From a virus, in IMG/VR virus record IMGVR_UViG_3300032323_003252, positions 1 to 49,077 of that record: a stretch of DNA of 49,077 bases. One strand, 5' to 3'. Shown piece by piece: positions 4,205-10,849 of the stretch. Below the pieces are notes generated by a model. The model was not told the DNA's origin, did no database searches, and saw only the letters and a program-made list of their open reading frames with translations. Numbering within the stretch: the first letter of the stretch is position 1; every line of letters starts with the position of its first letter. The translations under genes and the position numbers were made by a program.

Positions 4205-4894
4205 TTAAATTTGATGTCCTCCATTATTAATTTTAATACTATCAAAGAATTCTTGACGAGATAGATTATTATTATCCATAAACACACCTGATGCTTTTGT
4301 GGTAACCATTGAAGCACCTTGGTGTTTTACACCTCTACAGCTAACACAATTATGTGTAGCAACTACAGTCACAATAACACCTTTATTACCTTCAGTAATT
4401 TTATCTACTGCTTGGTGGATTGCTGATGTAAGTTGTTCTTGAATAGCACCTCTACGACCAAAATGTTCTACAATACGATTTAATTTACTTAAACCAATTA
4501 CTGAACCGCCTTCACCTACTACATAACCAACATGAACAACGCCTCCAATTGTTTGGTGGTGATGAGAACACATTGATGTAAGTGGAATATTTCTTTCAAT
4601 TACAATACCATCATAACCATCTGAGGGGAAAGCTGTAATGTCAGACATTGGTTCATATCTACCTTTCCATAGGTCAAATACATATGCTTTAGCTACTCTA
4701 CGAGGAGTATCTTGGGAATTAGGATCATTTCTCCAATCACACCCTAAAGCATCTAAAAATTGTCCATATGCTTCAGTTGCTCTATCTACCATTTCCCATT
4801 TTTCATCTTCGGTTAATGGAAAACCAGGGGCAACACCATTAGCATATCCTTGTTTTACTACTTCTAAATTTAATTTAAATGTTTTATTATTCAT
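4205..4894 (-). CDS. folE: GTP cyclohydrolase I (FolE), first step of 7-deazaguanine synthesis
   Basis: A 229-residue FolE of normal length from the ATG at 4894. A longer in-frame reading overlaps the HPRT gene and adds no conserved sequence. Zinc ligands are C109 and H112 in MCSHHHQTIGG, and C183 in THNCVSC. SVIGLSKLNRIVEHF and the C-terminal RGVKHQGASMVTT match the family. It converts GTP to 7,8-dihydroneopterin triphosphate, the substrate of QueD. No folate genes are nearby, whereas queD, queE, a queC-like gene and a dpdA-like gene are in the same run. The likely role is therefore DNA-base modification rather than folate supply. Confidence 0.95.
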   Translation of the reverse strand: MNNKTFKLNLEVVKQGYANGVAPGFPLTEDEKWEMVDRATEAYGQFLDALGCDWRNDPNSQDTPRRVAKAYVFDLWKGRYEPMSDITAFPSDGYDGIVIERNIPLTSMCSHHHQTIGGVVHVGYVVGEGGSVIGLSKLNRIVEHFGRRGAIQEQLTSAIHQAVDKITEGNKGVIVTVVATHNCVSCRGVKHQGASMVTTKASGVFMDNNNLSRQEFFDSIKINNGGHQI

Positions 4895-4910
4895 AACTCT
4901 TTGTAATATA

Positions 4911-5414
4911 TTAATCTTCAGGTAAATATCCAAGTATATGTGATAAATTCCTTTTTGTACCGTCAGCCGCATCTAATCCATATCCTACTAACCAATGTTC
5001 GTTTTGTAATTCAAAACCATAAATTAAATCAGGACTATTAGAATAATGCTTTTTAAATAACGTAACTGGGGTAATTGATTTTGGTTTTAGGTAATTTAAA
5101 TGTTTAATCAAACGATTCATAGTATTACCTGAATCGTAAATATCATCTACTAAATAAACATCTTTTCCTTCAATATCAATATCAATTGATTTTAGAATAC
5201 GAATTTCACCCTGCGATGTTCCTTCGTAAGATTTCGCACTTATAAAGTCTATATGGCAATCACCTACTTGTTTCACCAAGTCCGTAAAAAACATAAATGC
5301 GCCGTTTAAAACGCATATAAACACGGGAGATTGTTCGTGTTGTCTTTTTTTAATGTTGTAAGCAATTTCGCCTACTTTGTTTTTAATTTCTTTTTCTGTA
5401 AACAGTGTTATCAT
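4911..5414 (-). CDS. hpt: Hypoxanthine/guanine phosphoribosyltransferase
   Basis: A 167-residue purine phosphoribosyltransferase. The PRPP-binding loop is VYLVDDIYDSGNT. VFICVLNGAFMFFTDL matches the N-terminal strand and pyrophosphate loop. The base-binding region near the end reads LVGYGLDAADGTKRNL. It should convert hypoxanthine or guanine plus PRPP into IMP or GMP. Its ATG overlaps the stop of the upstream thioredoxin-like gene (ATGA), so the two are translationally coupled. It sits next to folE within the 7-deazaguanine block. One possible job, inferred here, is to salvage the guanine released when DpdA swaps bases in DNA, returning it to the GTP pool that FolE uses. Confidence 0.92.
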   Translation of the reverse strand: MITLFTEKEIKNKVGEIAYNIKKRQHEQSPVFICVLNGAFMFFTDLVKQVGDCHIDFISAKSYEGTSQGEIRILKSIDIDIEGKDVYLVDDIYDSGNTMNRLIKHLNYLKPKSITPVTLFKKHYSNSPDLIYGFELQNEHWLVGYGLDAADGTKRNLSHILGYLPED

Positions 5415-5659
5415 AAAATTATTTGTTTCAAAACTTTTTTGATTTCATATGGACCCTCAAATTGATGTTTTCCATTTTCATCTTCAATAACTAAAGTAGG
5501 AATATATTCTACTTCAAATTGTTCAGTTAATACAGTATCTTCATAAGTATTAACAATTTCCATTTGTAAAGGTTCTTTTACTTCATCTATAATGTGTTGA
5601 ATACTTCTACAAGCACCACATCCTTGGCCATAAAAATAAGTAATTACGGGTTTCATCAT
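5411..5659 (-). CDS. Thioredoxin/glutaredoxin-like protein (CGAC)
   Basis: An 82-residue thioredoxin-fold protein with the redox motif CGAC near residue 14 (YFYGQGCGACRSIQHII) and the cis-proline segment EYIPTLVI. The ATG is doubled (ATGATG), with the first chosen. An ATATTTAT element lies immediately upstream and overlaps the stop codon of the thioesterase gene, so this gene and those below it may have an internal promoter. Possible roles include donating electrons to ribonucleotide reductase. A second thioredoxin with the classical WCGPC motif is encoded about 1.7 kb upstream. Confidence 0.85.
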   Translation of the reverse strand: MMKPVITYFYGQGCGACRSIQHIIDEVKEPLQMEIVNTYEDTVLTEQFEVEYIPTLVIEDENGKHQFEGPYEIKKVLKQIIL

Positions 5660-5669
5660 TATAAATATT
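5659..5669 (-). promoter_or_regulatory. ATATTTAT element before the CGAC thioredoxin
   Basis: The coding strand reads AATATTTATAA and runs into the ATG. It overlaps the TAA stop of the upstream thioesterase gene. It is one of few copies in the nucleotide-metabolism half of the window. Promoter function is inferred. Confidence 0.4.
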
Positions 5670-6072
5670 AAAGTTTAGAATCAGGAAGTTTATATTTATC
5701 TTTTACTGTTTGAGAAATAGATATAGGAGCTCCTTCATCATCTACTCTAACAAAAGTCATACTTGTTTCTAATAATGTAACCTCATCTCCTCTAAAAACA
5801 TTATATGCTCTTGCCTCTACTTTAAAGGTTGCTGAAGTGTTTCCTATTTTAGATACTTCAGCATATATTTTAACTAGATTTTTTTCTTTTGCTGGTTTTT
5901 TAAAAATACACTTATCTATAGCTACTGTAATCATGTTTTGGGATCTACATTTTTCCATTGCATAAGCAGCAACCGCGGCATCTATCCAGCTAAGTAATTT
6001 ACCGCCGAATAGATTACCGTGGAAACCTAAATCTAATTTTTTAACAGGATGTGTTGATAATAAATCCATCAT
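5668..6072 (-). CDS. Acyl-CoA thioesterase-like hotdog protein
   Basis: A 134-residue single hotdog-domain protein of the YciA/acyl-CoA thioesterase type. The signature is near the N-terminus: GNLFGGKLLSWIDAAVAAYA, the hotdog helix with its active-site region. MTVAIDKCIFKKPAKEKNLVKI and SMTFVRVDDEG follow the expected strand order. Family members hydrolyse acyl-CoA thioesters. Its start overlaps the QueE stop (ATGA), so it is coupled to the 7-deazaguanine genes. Why a phage keeps it there is unclear. It might act on a different thioester or modify host lipid metabolism. The fold is well supported, the substrate is not. Confidence 0.85.
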   Translation of the reverse strand: MMDLLSTHPVKKLDLGFHGNLFGGKLLSWIDAAVAAYAMEKCRSQNMITVAIDKCIFKKPAKEKNLVKIYAEVSKIGNTSATFKVEARAYNVFRGDEVTLLETSMTFVRVDDEGAPISISQTVKDKYKLPDSKL

Positions 6073-6854
6073 ACAGCACGTTTAGTATCGTAAGCAATAA
6101 TGTGATCTCTACCAGTCCAATTATAACCCATTTCCATACATTTTTCAATTGAAATAGGATACATATGAATCAATGTTTCTCTAGTATCACCAGCAGGCAT
6201 TAACCATGTTTTCCATTTTGGAATATCCATTTCAACTCTAAATGATTCAATTTCATTTAAATTTTCTTCAGTTCCATCCCATACTGGTTTAAAATGATAG
6301 TCACCATGATAAGCCATCATTTGAGACATTGCTTCTTTATTTAAACGAAGCTTATTGTGTTGATCAATCATTTTTTGGTCAACCAACTTACCCATTGGCG
6401 TAGTAACGTCAAGCTTTGGGACACTATTACTAAACTTAGGGCTAAGAGATACCAACCCGATTGGGTAATCTGTTTCAACGTAGTGAGAACCTTCTGTTTC
6501 AATGGTTATAAATATACCCCTAGAATAGGCAAAATGAGTAAGTTCATTTACTAAATCTGGTTGCATAGTTGGAGAACCACCTGTTAACATCATTTCTCTA
6601 ATATGAGGATTCTCATCATAGATTTTAATAATGTCGTTAAATGTATAAATACCTTTTTCTGGGTGAATACTTGTGTACCAAGAATCACACCAACCACCTT
6701 CACCAAACCAACATCTGTGGGTACATCCTGTTGTTCTAATAGCTATAGTTGGTCTACCTTGTCTTGAACCTTCTGATTGTACACAAGGATACAATTCAAG
6801 TAAAGGTAATTTTTTGTTATAGTCTGTAATACGACCTGGTTTTTTAATTTCCAT
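6069..6854 (-). CDS. queE: 7-carboxy-7-deazaguanine synthase (QueE), radical SAM
   Basis: A 261-residue radical SAM protein. The family signature is QSEGSRQGRPTIAIRTTGC followed by the cluster cysteines C44, C48 and C56. Here the second and third cysteines are seven residues apart (CTHRCWFGEGGWCDS), instead of the two residues of the common CX3CX2C motif, so the cluster loop carries an insertion. The glycine-rich SAM motif LTGGSP and ITIETEGS (as in other QueE proteins) follow. It converts 6-carboxy-tetrahydropterin to 7-carboxy-7-deazaguanine (CDG). It is next to queD, its substrate supplier, and overlaps the thioesterase gene. Confidence 0.93.
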   Translation of the reverse strand: MEIKKPGRITDYNKKLPLLELYPCVQSEGSRQGRPTIAIRTTGCTHRCWFGEGGWCDSWYTSIHPEKGIYTFNDIIKIYDENPHIREMMLTGGSPTMQPDLVNELTHFAYSRGIFITIETEGSHYVETDYPIGLVSLSPKFSNSVPKLDVTTPMGKLVDQKMIDQHNKLRLNKEAMSQMMAYHGDYHFKPVWDGTEENLNEIESFRVEMDIPKWKTWLMPAGDTRETLIHMYPISIEKCMEMGYNWTGRDHIIAYDTKRAV

Positions 6855-6856
6855 AA

Positions 6857-7321
6857 TTATCCTTTATAAAATGCTGTGTTTTTTTCATGTTCACGGAATT
6901 CAACTTGTACCACTCTAACACGACCTTCTGTTTCTGCTTGTACAAAATCGTTTAGCTTATTATAAAAATATTCAGCAAAACGTTCTGCTCCTACTGATGG
7001 TAGTATTCTTAGCTGTACAGCTCCGGTCGCGTCTAGTGTTTTAAAAGTATCTAATAATGGATCATCCTCTGCCATAATGGTTGTATGATCAAGCATATAA
7101 TCCATCCATGCTTTAGGATTCATACCATCAATAGTACCTTTAGCACGTTTCATACCACCAAAATCCCAAACCCAATTACGCTCATCAAGTTCACCTTCGA
7201 ACCATACTTTTAAACTTACTCCATAACCATGAAGAAACTTACAATGTGTTCCTTTGGCTCTCCATTGACGGAATACTGTTGAATAACCGTCAAATACTTT
7301 TGTTGATCTAAAACTACCCAT
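6857..7321 (-). CDS. queD: 6-carboxy-tetrahydropterin synthase (QueD)
   Basis: A 154-residue protein of the PTPS/QueD family. The catalytic Cys and zinc-loop region read HCKFLHGYGV (C27, H31). LDHT (D78, H79) supplies the usual Asp-His pair. PSVGAERFAEYFYNKL and the late Glu in VVQVEFREHEKNTAFY match family positions. The canonical HGH pair is HGY here, and the first zinc His of the usual xxAH motif is replaced within STVFRQW. I believe such FRQW/HGY forms make up a known subfamily, so this need not mean inactivation. It converts dihydroneopterin triphosphate from FolE into the QueE substrate. Its start overlaps the upstream thioredoxin by 8 bases. Confidence 0.9.
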   Translation of the reverse strand: MGSFRSTKVFDGYSTVFRQWRAKGTHCKFLHGYGVSLKVWFEGELDERNWVWDFGGMKRAKGTIDGMNPKAWMDYMLDHTTIMAEDDPLLDTFKTLDATGAVQLRILPSVGAERFAEYFYNKLNDFVQAETEGRVRVVQVEFREHEKNTAFYKG

Positions 7322-7559
7322 TGATAAAATCTATTACTTGTTGATAACTTCTTGCACCAGTGAATCTACGAATTTCAGTTTCACCTTCCACGAGTATTAC
7401 AGTAGGAACTGATCTAACATTAGCTCTAGCAGCTAAGTCAGCTTCATAATCTACATTTACTTTAACAACAGGTATAATTGATGATAATTGATCCATAACA
7501 GGACCAAATGATTGACAGGGTCCGCACCATGGTGCACTATAATAAAATAATTTTTTCAT
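7314..7559 (-). CDS. Thioredoxin (WCGPC)
   Basis: An 81-residue minimal thioredoxin with the classical active site WCGPC (residues 12-16, YYSAPWCGPCQSF), the strand VVKVNVDYE and the cis-proline loop RSVPTVILVEG. It is shorter than cellular thioredoxins (about 105 residues) because the first strand and helix are missing, as is common in phage versions. It is a likely reductant for the class II ribonucleotide reductase encoded upstream, whose C-terminal cysteine pair needs re-reduction. Its ATG overlaps the stop of the upstream small membrane protein (ATGA), and its end overlaps queD. Confidence 0.93.
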   Translation of the reverse strand: MKKLFYYSAPWCGPCQSFGPVMDQLSSIIPVVKVNVDYEADLAARANVRSVPTVILVEGETEIRRFTGARSYQQVIDFING

Positions 7560-7711
7560 ACTAATTCTTCTACAATTCCAATAAGTTCGCTAATAATTAG
7601 GATAAATACTCCTAATCCAATACTGTACAATAAAGCTCCATAGCCTGTTAATCTAACGGCTGATTTAAGGAAGCTTACAATTTGGTGTTTTTTAGGGTCT
7701 GGGTGGTTCAT
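7556..7711 (-). CDS. Small single-span membrane protein (51 residues)
   Basis: A short open frame that fills the gap between two confident genes exactly. Its ATG overlaps the stop of the upstream 71-residue gene (ATGA), and its TGA overlaps the ATG of the thioredoxin (ATGA). The protein begins MNHPDPKKHQIVSFLKSAVR, a polar and basic start. A run of about 20 hydrophobic residues follows (GALLYSIGLGVFILIISELI), and it ends IGIVEELV. One transmembrane helix with the N-terminus inside is likely. Double ATGA coupling makes it very likely to be translated. Function unknown; a holin-like or envelope role is possible but unsupported. Confidence 0.8.
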   Translation of the reverse strand: MNHPDPKKHQIVSFLKSAVRLTGYGALLYSIGLGVFILIISELIGIVEELV

Positions 7712-7923
7712 ATTAATTCTTCTTCTTTAATTAACTCGGCTCCTGGATTATGTCGCAGGAGCCAAGATGTATTTTCTTTGTTTAATGGTTTTGCCTCAAA
7801 CCAGTCATAAGACCAATGAGCATAACCTTTATATAGTCCGGTGAATACTTCTCCTTCTCTATTAATCACCACATACATTTGTTGTGGTGGAGGTGATTTT
7901 CTATACTGTCTTCGCGTGTTCAT
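7708..7923 (-). CDS. Hypothetical protein, 71 residues
   Basis: Not recognised. It has a basic, proline-rich N-terminus (MNTRRQYRKSPPPQQM), then a strand-like segment (YVVINREGEVFTGLYKG) and an aromatic stretch (AHWSYDWFEAKPL). The first 23 bases overlap the end of the HNH gene. Its end is coupled by ATGA to the small membrane protein. Conserved spacing on both sides supports it as a real gene. Confidence 0.7.
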   Translation of the reverse strand: MNTRRQYRKSPPPQQMYVVINREGEVFTGLYKGYAHWSYDWFEAKPLNKENTSWLLRHNPGAELIKEEELI

Positions 7924-8386
7924 CTAGAACGGAAGATACGTACTCTTTTTCTGGGTTCCAAATTAGATAATTCTCTATTTTCATTCCTTTTGTTTTTTCT
8001 TGGTGGTGAAAGTCAGTGTGACAATTACGACATAAAGGAATACATTTTCTTATTTCTAGTTTCAAAACATCTAAAGTTCTATTCTTATAATGGGGAACAG
8101 GTTTATCTTTTTCTTTAGGATCTAAATGATGATAATCAATTAACCAATATCTTTTATCATGACATTTTAGACACCCAACTAAAGATTTATGTCTGTTCAT
8201 AAAATGTTGTCCTCTATCGTTTGCTTTTTTATTTGCTTTTTTACTATATTTTGAATATTTATCTTTATTCTTTATATTATGTGTTTTATTATAAGCATGT
8301 TGACAAAGTTTACATTTACCACCATTTTTATAAAAATCAGTTATAGGTTTTTGATGTTGACATGAAGGGCAAGTTTTTAATTCCAT
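7901..8386 (-). CDS. HNH endonuclease with N-terminal zinc ribbon
   Basis: A 161-residue protein. An N-terminal zinc-finger-like unit (CPSCQHQKPITDFY...CKLC) is followed by a lysine-rich linker. A second CLKC and the HNH core follow: DYHHLDP with the Asp-His-His of the beta hairpin, then PLCRNCHTDFHH with the final Asn and His ligands. It probably nicks or cuts DNA, most likely as a free-standing homing endonuclease. It interrupts the 7-deazaguanine genes between the queC-like gene and the thioredoxin/queD run. It overlaps the next gene by 23 bases, and a strong inverted repeat lies just upstream of its start. Its lysine-rich composition differs from its neighbours. Confidence 0.9.
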   Translation of the reverse strand: MELKTCPSCQHQKPITDFYKNGGKCKLCQHAYNKTHNIKNKDKYSKYSKKANKKANDRGQHFMNRHKSLVGCLKCHDKRYWLIDYHHLDPKEKDKPVPHYKNRTLDVLKLEIRKCIPLCRNCHTDFHHQEKTKGMKIENYLIWNPEKEYVSSVLDEHAKTV

Positions 8387-8399
8387 AATTATATTTTTA

Positions 8400-8429
8400 G
8401 ATCCGGTTATACATATGTGTAACTGGATC
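8400..8429. repeat. 30-base inverted repeat (long hairpin) upstream of the HNH gene
   Basis: GATCCGGTTATACA pairs with TGTAACTGGATC and its neighbours to give a near-perfect stem of about 13 pairs, including two wobbles, with a 2-4 base loop. There is no T-tract on either strand after the stem, so it is not a standard terminator. It fills most of the gap between the queC-like gene and the HNH gene. Confidence 0.7.
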
Positions 8430-8439
8430 CAAAATATGA

Positions 8440-9309
8440 TTATTTATTATGTTCTTCTAAAACTTGTTTTACATATTCAACAACATATTCCCAAGTTACT
8501 GGGCCGAATTCATCAGCGTAATTCACTGCATCTCTTCTACCTAATTTCAAAAATGCTTCTACACGTTCAACTGAGGATGCTGATTTAAAATCGGAAAACC
8601 ATTCTTCATATTCTTCAACATCACCGTTATCTAAATGGTAATAAACTTTTAGTTTAATTGGTTTATAAGATGTGTTTGTACGTCTATAAACTTCATCAAA
8701 GTCTAATCCTAGTTGCTCACAACATACTAAACCATCTTCTAGAATAGTAAATTTATTTCCTTCCATATATGGAGTATAATAATTTACCAATTCAGAATTC
8801 CAGTTACCTATTTTAAAAGCATATTCATCTGCATTTCTGAAATTTTCGGTACAATCAGGATAAATTGTATGATCCCCGCTATGTACTCCCATAGCAATAA
8901 CACATTCTGTATTATTAGCTTCAGCAATAGATAAGGCAACTGCTTGAATAATTGAACTAAATATTTTGTTTCTATTAGGTACAACTGTTGCTTTCATATT
9001 TTCTTCAGCATAATGACCTTCAGGAACTTCTGCTCCACCTGTTACTAAAGCTGAGTTTAGTAGCTGAGATAAACCGTCAAGTTTAATTACTTGATACTTT
9101 ATCAATTCATAATCTCTAGGACGGTCAGACATGTAAGTTTGACCATTAATATAATTTACTAATTCCTGAGCGCGTTCAAGTTCAACTGAATGTTTTTGAC
9201 CATAGTCAAAAGATAATGCTGTTACTTCATAGCCGTTGGCAAGTAGATGAAGCAGTAGAGTGGAAGAATCCATTCCTCCACTCAATGACAATACTGCTTG
9301 CTTTTTCAT
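8440..9309 (-). CDS. queC-like: QueC-like ATP-pyrophosphatase lacking the zinc site
   Basis: A 289-residue homologue of 7-cyano-7-deazaguanine synthase. The PP-loop SGGMDS (residues 10-15), FDYGQKH, VPNRN and GVHSGDHTIYPDC follow QueC. Normal QueC has four cysteines binding zinc (CY..., then CGxCxxC before VERxEAF). Here the aligned residues are S214 (TNTSYKP), D240, S243 and S246 (SDFKSASSVERVEAF), so all four are lost while the surrounding sequence is kept. About 18 extra residues separate the two halves. QueC normally turns CDG into preQ0 with ATP and ammonia. This variant may catalyse a different ATP-dependent step on CDG. A phage CDG decarboxylase named DpdL has been predicted in the literature; whether it matches this variant I cannot tell. 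It overlaps the upstream gene by 1 base. Confidence 0.88.
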   Translation of the reverse strand: MKKQAVLSLSGGMDSSTLLLHLLANGYEVTALSFDYGQKHSVELERAQELVNYINGQTYMSDRPRDYELIKYQVIKLDGLSQLLNSALVTGGAEVPEGHYAEENMKATVVPNRNKIFSSIIQAVALSIAEANNTECVIAMGVHSGDHTIYPDCTENFRNADEYAFKIGNWNSELVNYYTPYMEGNKFTILEDGLVCCEQLGLDFDEVYRRTNTSYKPIKLKVYYHLDNGDVEEYEEWFSDFKSASSVERVEAFLKLGRRDAVNYADEFGPVTWEYVVEYVKQVLEEHNK

Positions 9310-9689
9310 TAGAATGATACTGTTAAAATTGTTTTGATAACTAAATCAGACATTTCATAATCAGCTAAATCTTTATCTCTAGCTACTTGAAAATCTACTG
9401 ATTGTCCATTTTTGGTTTCAATCCACATTTCTTTTAGAAATTCTGTTTTAGTAAGTTTGTTGTCTTCGTCTCTTGTTACTTTAAAAACTGCTACTTTATT
9501 TTGCATAATTTGTGTTATTGATGGTGATGTGTAATTAATTGGATGAGAAAATGATATTGTGTTTGGTGTTGCTGTAGTTCCAGAACTAATTCTGAAATCA
9601 GTTCCAGTTGAGTAATCACTCAAGCCTGAATATGATATGCTTGATATACCTGATGTACCAAGTGATGTTGTAAATGGATGTGGTTCCAT
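9309..9689 (-). CDS. Hypothetical protein in the 7-deazaguanine block
   Basis: A 126-residue protein I do not recognise. The first half is Ser/Thr/Gly-rich (TTSLGTSGISSISYSGLSDY) and looks like a beta-rich or virion-type segment. The second half is charged and more globular (KVAVFKVTRDEDNKLTKTEF...). No membrane span or known motif is visible. The stop shares one base with the queC-like ATG, so the two are translated together. Its place between dpdA and the queC-like gene makes a role near base modification conceivable but unproven. Confidence 0.75.
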   Translation of the reverse strand: MEPHPFTTSLGTSGISSISYSGLSDYSTGTDFRISSGTTATPNTISFSHPINYTSPSITQIMQNKVAVFKVTRDEDNKLTKTEFLKEMWIETKNGQSVDFQVARDKDLADYEMSDLVIKTILTVSF

Positions 9690-9690
9690 A

Positions 9691-9822
9691 TTATAATTTT
9701 GTTTTATTAGCGAATCTACGTAAAAGTTCTACATTAGCCAAACTTAGGCGATGTCTATTTTCCCATAAAGCATCTAGTGTTTTTTTAATCTCTGCTTCCC
9801 AAGCAGGATTAATATCTTTCAT
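9691..9822 (-). CDS. Small hypothetical protein, 43 residues
   Basis: A short open frame filling the gap between two genes. It begins MKDINPAWEAEIKKTLDALW and continues with a basic helix ending RRFANKTKL. The chosen ATG lies 4 bases after the upstream stop, matching the tight spacing of its neighbours. An in-frame ATG at 9855 would add 11 residues and overlap the upstream gene. The predicted protein is a single amphipathic helix or helix pair. Function unknown. Confidence 0.6.
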   Translation of the reverse strand: MKDINPAWEAEIKKTLDALWENRHRLSLANVELLRRFANKTKL

Positions 9823-9826
9823 TGGT

Positions 9827-10069
9827 TTAGAAGGGGAGGGTTCTGTCGTCATCATTTGTATTTAAATTAAAGTTTGATTGACCTGTACTAAAATAACCAA
9901 TTAACCAATTTTCAGGATACATTAATATTTCTCCTGTGTATTTGGGATTTGATACTTGTTTAACTCGGGATGGGATTCCAATAGCACGAGCATCATTGCT
10001 TACTTTAAGTCCTAATTCTTTACCTGCGGGCTTACCGAGATAATCATAAAGTGATAAAAATTTTTCCAT
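9827..10069 (-). CDS. Hypothetical 80-residue protein with SSB-type C-terminal tail
   Basis: A small protein not matched to a family. The body (MEKFLSLYDYLGKPAGKELG ... PENWLIGYF) is followed by a flexible Asn/Thr stretch and the ending NDDDRTLPF. An acidic run finishing in Leu-Pro-Phe resembles the C-terminal tip by which bacterial SSB recruits repair and replication partners. The phage gp32-like protein ends EEDDNDLPF, so the two share this feature. It sits directly after dpdA (3-base gap). It might dock onto SSB-binding partners; this is inference. Confidence 0.75.
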   Translation of the reverse strand: MEKFLSLYDYLGKPAGKELGLKVSNDARAIGIPSRVKQVSNPKYTGEILMYPENWLIGYFSTGQSNFNLNTNDDDRTLPF

Positions 10070-10072
10070 AAC

Positions 10073-10849
10073 TTATTTTAATAATTTTCTAAACATTCTT
10101 AAATTCCAATCCAACAAATTATAATCTATATCTGTTGTATAAAAGTGATCATTCATATTTGCTTTTGGTTTTTCAAGCAAACCGTTACGACCATATTGAA
10201 TACCATCAATTGTAGCCATAATTGGATTTGATGTATCAATTGTTTCAATAAAATCAGCATTTTTATACCAACTAAATTCTTGTGGTACCTGACAACCGAG
10301 TAAATGTACTCTATCATTTGGTTGAATTAAACCCATATTATACATTCTACTTACAACCTCAATTCTACCTAATGCTTTAGCAAGATTTTGGTTTGGATGA
10401 TTTGAGTGATCTAAATAATATTCAACACCATATGAAAATGCTATTTTTTCATAACCTAAATCTTTATATGTTTGATAACAAACTACAGCATCTAAAAAGT
10501 TTTGAGCTTGAACAACTGCTACTTTAGTAACACCTTTAGGTAATTTAACTTGAACCCATTCTCTAGCATTAACAATAGAAGCATTTGTATCTTGCCATAC
10601 ATCTGGTATGATAAATTCATTTGGTTTTAACTCATTTATCCAGTATAGTAAGCGAGATCTATCATATGCGTGACCAAGTTCGTGAAGTGAATTATCCATT
10701 ATAGTATAAACACCTTCTTGCTTTACTTTATAAAAGAAATTTTTATAATCTTCGTCCTGGTCTAATAAATGAGGTAAGCAATACTGATAATCATTGAAAT
10801 CTAGACTATCTTCTAGCAAACAAATAGGAACTTCATGACTGATTTTCAT
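10073..10849 (-). CDS. dpdA: DpdA-like guanine transglycosylase (7-deazaguanine insertion into DNA)
   Basis: A 258-residue TGT-superfamily protein, shorter than tRNA-guanine transglycosylases and without their zinc site, as in phage DpdA proteins. Likely catalytic regions are MDNSLHELG (D52), EFIIPDV (D83), FSYGVEYYLDHS, VHLLGCQVPQEF and ETIDTSNPIMATIDG (D205, probable nucleophile). DpdA enzymes exchange guanine in DNA for a 7-deazaguanine base, which protects phage DNA from restriction. The genes for precursor synthesis (queC-like, queD, queE, folE) follow in the same direction. An ATATTTAT element lies upstream. The subfamily (DpdA1, 2 or 3) cannot be decided by eye. Confidence 0.85.
   Translation of the reverse strand: MKISHEVPICLLEDSLDFNDYQYCLPHLLDQDEDYKNFFYKVKQEGVYTIMDNSLHELGHAYDRSRLLYWINELKPNEFIIPDVWQDTNASIVNAREWVQVKLPKGVTKVAVVQAQNFLDAVVCYQTYKDLGYEKIAFSYGVEYYLDHSNHPNQNLAKALGRIEVVSRMYNMGLIQPNDRVHLLGCQVPQEFSWYKNADFIETIDTSNPIMATIDGIQYGRNGLLEKPKANMNDHFYTTDIDYNLLDWNLRMFRKLLK

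Follow-up and report, generated by a model that had tools for sequence, protein, structure and literature searches.

Known phage systems and the locus analyzed

FolE, QueD, QueE, QueC and the transglycosylase DpdA form the minimal complete phage set for 2′-deoxy-7-cyano-7-deazaguanine (dPreQ0), as described for phages CAjan and Rosebush (PMC6884629). In the DNA of phages CP220 and CPt10, 2′-deoxy-7-amido-7-deazaguanine (dADG) is reported to replace 100% of the deoxyguanosine (PMC8306585). This kind of system is already known, and phages of the type of Flavobacterium phage vB_FspM_immuto (Immutovirus; immuto in the following) have already been annotated. Here, we analyzed a stretch of viral DNA of 49,077 nucleotides, IMG/VR record IMGVR_UViG_3300032323_003252 (the window), in which open reading frames and family matches identify FolE, QueD, QueE, a QueC-like and a DpdA-like protein, all encoded on the minus strand between positions 4205 and 10849.

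The proteins of immuto share 62% (QueC), 67% (QueE), 70% (QueD), 63% (FolE) and 33% (DpdA) identity with those of the window. Both phages possess a QueC without its zinc site and a phosphoribosyltransferase (PRT) gene ahead of folE. However, in immuto queC is located more than 10 kb away, the PRT is of the xanthine-guanine (XGPRT) and not the hypoxanthine-guanine (HGPRT) type, dpdA is followed by genes for QueF and a PurN-like formyltransferase, and the DNA polymerase belongs to family A. CP220 and CPt10 encode a homologue of the DpdA-like protein, gp056 (35% identity over 91%, E 2e-35), in which D52, D83, D205 and the HLLG motif are invariant; identity and conserved residues together indicate kinship to the CP220 transglycosylase. 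In contrast to the window, CP220 has its genes scattered over a 177-kb genome, retains the cysteine motif of QueC, lacks a PF00156 PRT and carries several other radical S-adenosylmethionine (SAM) genes. The dPreQ0 sets of CAjan and Rosebush comprise the same minimal genes as the window, without an amidotransferase or QueF (PMC6884629), but their DpdA types are out of tblastn reach from the window protein, and CAjan has a canonical cysteine motif in QueC and no PRT.

An earlier note on this DNA had described the five genes as a near-complete operon on one strand. All five are present, as supported by family matches and fold; however, the wording was too weak for a set that is the minimal complete one for dPreQ0 (PMC6884629), and the shared strand, although correct, is not special, since almost the entire window is encoded on it. 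The note left several genes of the run unnamed, namely those for an HGPRT-like protein, two thioredoxins, a hotdog thioesterase and an HNH endonuclease. It also overlooked three features that jointly limit the range of likely products and hint at the way the pathway is supplied: the zinc-less QueC, the PRT and the missing QueF. As transcribed, the order is DpdA-like, small open reading frames, QueC, HNH endonuclease, two small open reading frames, thioredoxin, QueD, QueE, hotdog thioesterase, second thioredoxin, HGPRT-like and FolE, followed by dUTPase and DNA polymerase. The identical order recurs across dozens of IMG/VR contigs, and the clustering is therefore far beyond chance. The cluster type is one among hundreds of loci in IMG/VR, where at least 549 DpdA relatives were confirmed; the PRT locus counts given below come from related loci, are therefore not independent and are inflated by shared descent.

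Taken as a whole, the locus probably encodes a phage 7-deazaguanine DNA-modification pathway with a zinc-less QueC and guanine salvage by HGPRT. Sequence comparison and structure models provide the gene identities, the fold of tRNA-guanine transglycosylases (TGTs), the catalytic residues and the linkage, and from these we infer the enzyme activities, salvage, product, extent and protection. FolE, QueD and QueE would convert GTP to 7-carboxy-7-deazaguanine (CDG), from which the zinc-less QueC would form the amide (ADG) and, in a probable further step, the nitrile (preQ0). The DpdA-like enzyme would exchange guanine in replicated DNA for the 7-deazaguanine, and the HGPRT-like enzyme would join the freed guanine with phosphoribosyl pyrophosphate (PRPP) to give GMP, from which GTP would again become available to FolE; each GTP spent would thus be matched by one guanine returned. 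The mark would most likely be dPreQ0 or dADG. It could occupy most or even all guanines, as reported for CP220, and would shield the genome from host nucleases. On paper, the full synthesis and insertion set is encoded, and the phage would need no host queuosine genes, in line with what the earlier note had proposed.

A DpdA-like transglycosylase of the CP220/immuto group

The DpdA-like DNA guanine transglycosylase (10073..10849, minus strand; 258 amino acids) was assigned to the CP220/immuto group by its AlphaFold2 fold and invariant residues. It has no significant sequence match in Pfam, NCBIfam or the PDB, and its PHROGs matches are of unknown function only. As sequence searches with DpdA alone gave nothing useful, the assignment required fold evidence and a mixed profile. 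The AlphaFold2 model (55-sequence alignment) reached a pLDDT of 94, and the top Foldseek ranks were taken by TGTs and the DNA preQ0 insertase DpdA (7UI4; E 3e-6). VIA-align of the model with 7UI4 yielded Z 16.3 at an rmsd of 3.2 over 229 residues, tied with TGTs; in a comparison with viral models, the second match was a protein of Cellulophaga phage phiST (TM 0.84). A set of 29 diverse sequences, among them those of phiSM and MA9V-3, shows no change at residues D52, D83, H182, L184, G185 and D205. The DpdA-like identity proposed in the earlier note is thereby supported. Of the two aspartates which that note had expected to align with catalytic positions, D205 sits on the SID aspartate of 7UI4 in the mixed-profile match (E 0.0016) and, in a weak hhalign match with the host TGT (probability 1.2) that is consistent only, on the position of the TGT nucleophile (FDC). 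D52 stays invariant even in a phage protein that carries the annotation queuine tRNA-ribosyltransferase and is aligned through phage homologues only. The refutation test set by the earlier note is thus survived in part. Thus, the DpdA-like call is supported by the predicted TGT fold and the invariant catalytic aspartates.

The bacterial DpdA 7UI4 and the TGTs share the fold and the aligned HLLG...SID motif with the window protein but are longer (413-436 compared to 258 amino acids) and only 14% identical, and the window gene lies in a phage operon and not in a dpd defense island. No match to the TGT family PF01702 was obtained for the DpdA-like protein of the window or in CP220, immuto or six long relatives; judged from the model, the protein is related to these TGTs by fold only. 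CP220, immuto and the six long relatives thus have no PF01702 gene that could stand in for DpdA. This bears on the reading that the 7-deazaguanine is made for RNA, with the DpdA-like enzyme acting on tRNA or rRNA, to which the equally good fold match with tRNA transglycosylases would lend itself. Against it, the DNA-guanine transglycosylase 7UI4 is the sole significant profile match among solved proteins, and CP220, which encodes a homologue and otherwise lacks PF01702 matches, is reported to have fully modified DNA. We therefore regard an RNA target as very improbable, and DNA as the likely substrate.

The named relatives of the protein are immuto (annotated DpdA, 33% identity) and the CP220-type phages (35%). 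We take the latter group to be the one called DpdA3, with complete replacement and CP220 gp056 as its founding member. Weaker relatives occur in Bacillus, Weizmannia and Chryseobacterium phages, three of which have queE and folE, annotated or readable, nearby. As a separate observation, the proteins of five loci (L154, L160, L165, L167 and L168) form a supported sister clade of about 40% identity, in which DNGLFE replaces DNSLHE at the first catalytic aspartate.

A QueC clade without the zinc site

The QueC-like protein (8440..9309, minus strand; 289 amino acids), a candidate ATP-dependent CDG amidase/nitrile synthase, matches PF06508 above the cut-off (128 bits), and its AlphaFold model (pLDDT 86) finds the solved QueC 3bl5 as best match (Z 18.2). 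No fused amidotransferase domain is present, although ArcS or Gat domains were not the subject of a systematic search. Canonical QueC, described as a zinc enzyme, is characterized by the motifs SGGxDS, YxQxHxxE, VPxRN, YPDC and C(x)8CxxCxxC (PF06508 cluster 1, PMC13329287). The window protein keeps the first four as well as the essential tyrosine of the zinc region and lacks the C(x)8CxxCxxC zinc motif. The cysteines of the clade are replaced by TSY in the SCY region and by SDYKSASSVER (SDFKSASSVER in the window) in place of CGxCPxCxxR. CxxCxxC was found in none of 99 unique QueC relatives, 98 of which belong to the zinc-less clade (three are truncated before or within the region); the remaining one, from L172 (31% identical), represents another QueC lineage with some cysteines retained. 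The motif is kept in all seven other aligned phage QueCs, including those of CP220 and CAjan. To compare with a host QueC, flavobacterial metagenome-assembled genomes were searched, where the matches were phage copies. No description of this branch was found in the literature searched, the coverage of which left out some key papers.

The loss could mean that the zinc-less QueC makes no preQ0 but stops at ADG or joins the deazaguanine to another molecule, leaving dADG or 2′-deoxy-7-carboxy-7-deazaguanine (dCDG) in the DNA. In favor of this, the zinc cysteines are lost clade-wide in what is canonically a zinc enzyme (PMC13329287), and QueC homologues of defense systems conjugate CDG to proteins. 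However, the protein still has the four substrate and ATP motifs and the essential tyrosine, and immuto pairs the same QueC type with QueF (TIGR03138). The substrate of QueF is preQ0, which suggests continued nitrile formation in immuto, if the preQ0 does not come from the host. In addition, CP220 is reported to contain dADG and retains its QueC cysteines, so that dADG needs no zinc loss. We consider a QueC without preQ0 formation possible but rather doubtful, and the zinc-less enzyme probably proceeds to the nitrile. Zinc loss as a marker of dADG phages was also considered and was rejected, because CP220, with a reported 100% dADG, keeps the cysteines.

FolE and variant QueD and QueE

FolE, GTP cyclohydrolase I (4205..4894, minus strand), matches PF01227 with 144 bits at a gathering cut-off of 27; its start is probably at 4894 and not at 4972. 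The QueD-like CPH4 synthase (6857..7321, minus strand; PF01242 at 55 bits, above cut-off; phrog_2389) has a variant zinc site. It departs from the canonical zinc-ligand motif (Cys-x3-HGH plus an upstream histidine) in that HGY replaces HGH and the upstream histidine is replaced, and the catalytic cysteine, DH and glutamate are kept. HGY and the missing histidine recur in 59 of 59 relatives, and Cellulophaga phage phiSM is alike. The QueE-like radical SAM CDG synthase (6069..6854, minus strand) matches PF04055 above the cut-off and phrog_2076, ‘QueE-like’ (E 2e-45). Its [4Fe-4S] cluster motif reads CX3CX7C and not the canonical CX3CX2C, in the window as in 48 of 51 sequences, and a QueE-like function is supported by the remaining sequence similarity and synteny. 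As these departures are clade-wide, the QueD and QueE proteins more likely represent working variants than decay. The CX3CX7C motif of QueE holds an insert that is conserved and in the window reads WFGEGGW; in L006, L065 and others, a different QueE (about 30% identical) occupies the same slot.

A guanine phosphoribosyltransferase ahead of folE

The HGPRT-like protein (4911..5414, minus strand), proposed to salvage the guanine released by DpdA, matches PF00156 (86 bits) and solved HGPRTs (E 1e-28). The match to the type I HGPRT equivalog TIGR01203 is full-length with 134 bits at a cut-off of 150, and the PRPP motif reads DDIYDSGNT with an invariant aspartate. Its gene ends 16 nucleotides before the folE ATG at 4894. 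Of 44 loci that extend from DpdA to FolE, 40 contain a guanine-type PRT (33 HGPRT-like, seven of the XGPRT type). The distance from the end of the PRT gene to folE is mostly no more than about 60 bp, and in one further relative the PRT lies elsewhere in the genome. Guanine is the substrate common to both PRT types, and N7, which takes part in HGPRT chemistry, is missing from 7-deaza bases. Because DpdA frees one guanine per exchange and FolE uses one GTP per base, a guanine PRT would close the loop, and the HGPRT-like enzyme may thus return the released guanine to GTP for FolE. In the literature searched, which did not cover some key papers, no link of a phage HGPRT to 7-deazaguanine and no cluster-bound PRT was found.

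Alternatively, the modification pathway could be the same and the PRT unrelated to it, serving general purine salvage for nucleotide pools and travelling with dUTPase, RNR and polymerase genes. The cluster is indeed surrounded by dUTPase, RNR and PolB genes, and other DpdA phages do without a PRT. In contrast, 78 of the 80 best viral HGPRT relatives have que, folE or dpdA genes in their neighborhood, in 68 cases two or more of them, and two PRT subfamilies occupy the same slot, usually directly before folE. An unrelated PRT hence appears unlikely to us, and salvage for the pathway is the reading we prefer. A stricter version of it, a closed guanine cycle with a zinc-independent QueC, replacement of essentially all guanine and a dedicated PRT favoring guanine over 7-deaza bases, is likewise unlikely as a whole. 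As side observations, the four loci without a PRT in the cluster (L027, L066, L073 and L079) all encode a FolE that is divergent (43-47% identical), which would fit a joint exchange of PRT and folE, and L142, on the same contig as L004, has a second HGPRT-like gene far from a cluster already holding one.

End product and extent of modification

No QueF match was found in the window or in six long relatives, and the base is therefore probably dPreQ0 or dADG. Of the two, dPreQ0 is our tentative assignment, dADG is a serious possibility, and any other base is improbable. By analogy with the complete replacement reported for CP220, high guanine replacement is plausible; the window contains about 15,600 guanines at a GC content of 31.7%. 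EcoRI was blocked by deoxyarchaeosine (dG+) and not by dPreQ0, the levels of which were low (PMC6884629). Restriction resistance depends on which base is present and how much of it.

Several points weigh against the proposed pathway. QueC, QueD and QueE all depart from canonical metal-site motifs, and their activity cannot be assumed from sequence. Identity between the DpdA proteins of CP220 and the window is no more than about 35%. Four of the 44 loci have no PRT in the cluster, and PF00156 matches are absent in CP220, CAjan, phiSM, Mufasa8, Youna2 and BSTP5; salvage is therefore not a general need of DpdA phages, and the PRT link is a trait of the present clade.

Other genes of the cluster and genomic context

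Between dpdA and queC, a conserved 80-amino-acid protein (9827..10069, minus strand) without a family match recurs at this position in many related loci, and a 126-amino-acid protein of unknown function (9309..9689, minus strand) is present in part of the related clusters. The free-standing HNH endonuclease (7901..8386, minus strand; phrog_2255, E 2e-25), located between queC and the thioredoxin gene, is probably a mobile homing insert, as it is missing or elsewhere in the cluster in relatives (L006, L008, L031, L049). The thioredoxin-like protein with WCGPC (7314..7559, minus strand; TIGR01068, E 2e-18) is found between queC and queD in most loci. A second thioredoxin-like protein (5411..5659, minus strand; PF00085, 37 bits) is accompanied by a hotdog-fold (4HBT) acyl-CoA thioesterase-like protein (5668..6072, minus strand; PF03061, 65 bits), whose gene is common inside modification clusters without an obvious role. 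The L109 contig may be an assembly chimera, with PolB-FolE-HGPRT on one strand and, facing it from the opposite strand, a second run from TrxB to HGPRT. RNA families, e.g., the preQ1 riboswitch, were not found in the window.

The window also encodes tail sheath and baseplate hub proteins, and several cluster-bearing relatives lie on contigs of 136 to 269 kb; the window therefore most likely covers only part of the genome of a larger contractile-tailed phage. Binning of contigs with DpdA relatives into metagenome-assembled genomes pointed to Flavobacteriales, Winogradskyella and Flavobacteriaceae, but also to Pelagibacter and Legionellales. A flavobacterial, aquatic host is the likely guess, backed by the isolate immuto.

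The locus points to a large group of aquatic phages, most of them uncultured, that is expected to carry modified guanine. It raises the questions of whether QueC needs zinc and of how phages meet the cost of exchanging guanines by the tens of thousands in each genome. If the closed cycle with a zinc-less QueC holds true, the metal would not be required for the amide and nitrile steps of QueC.

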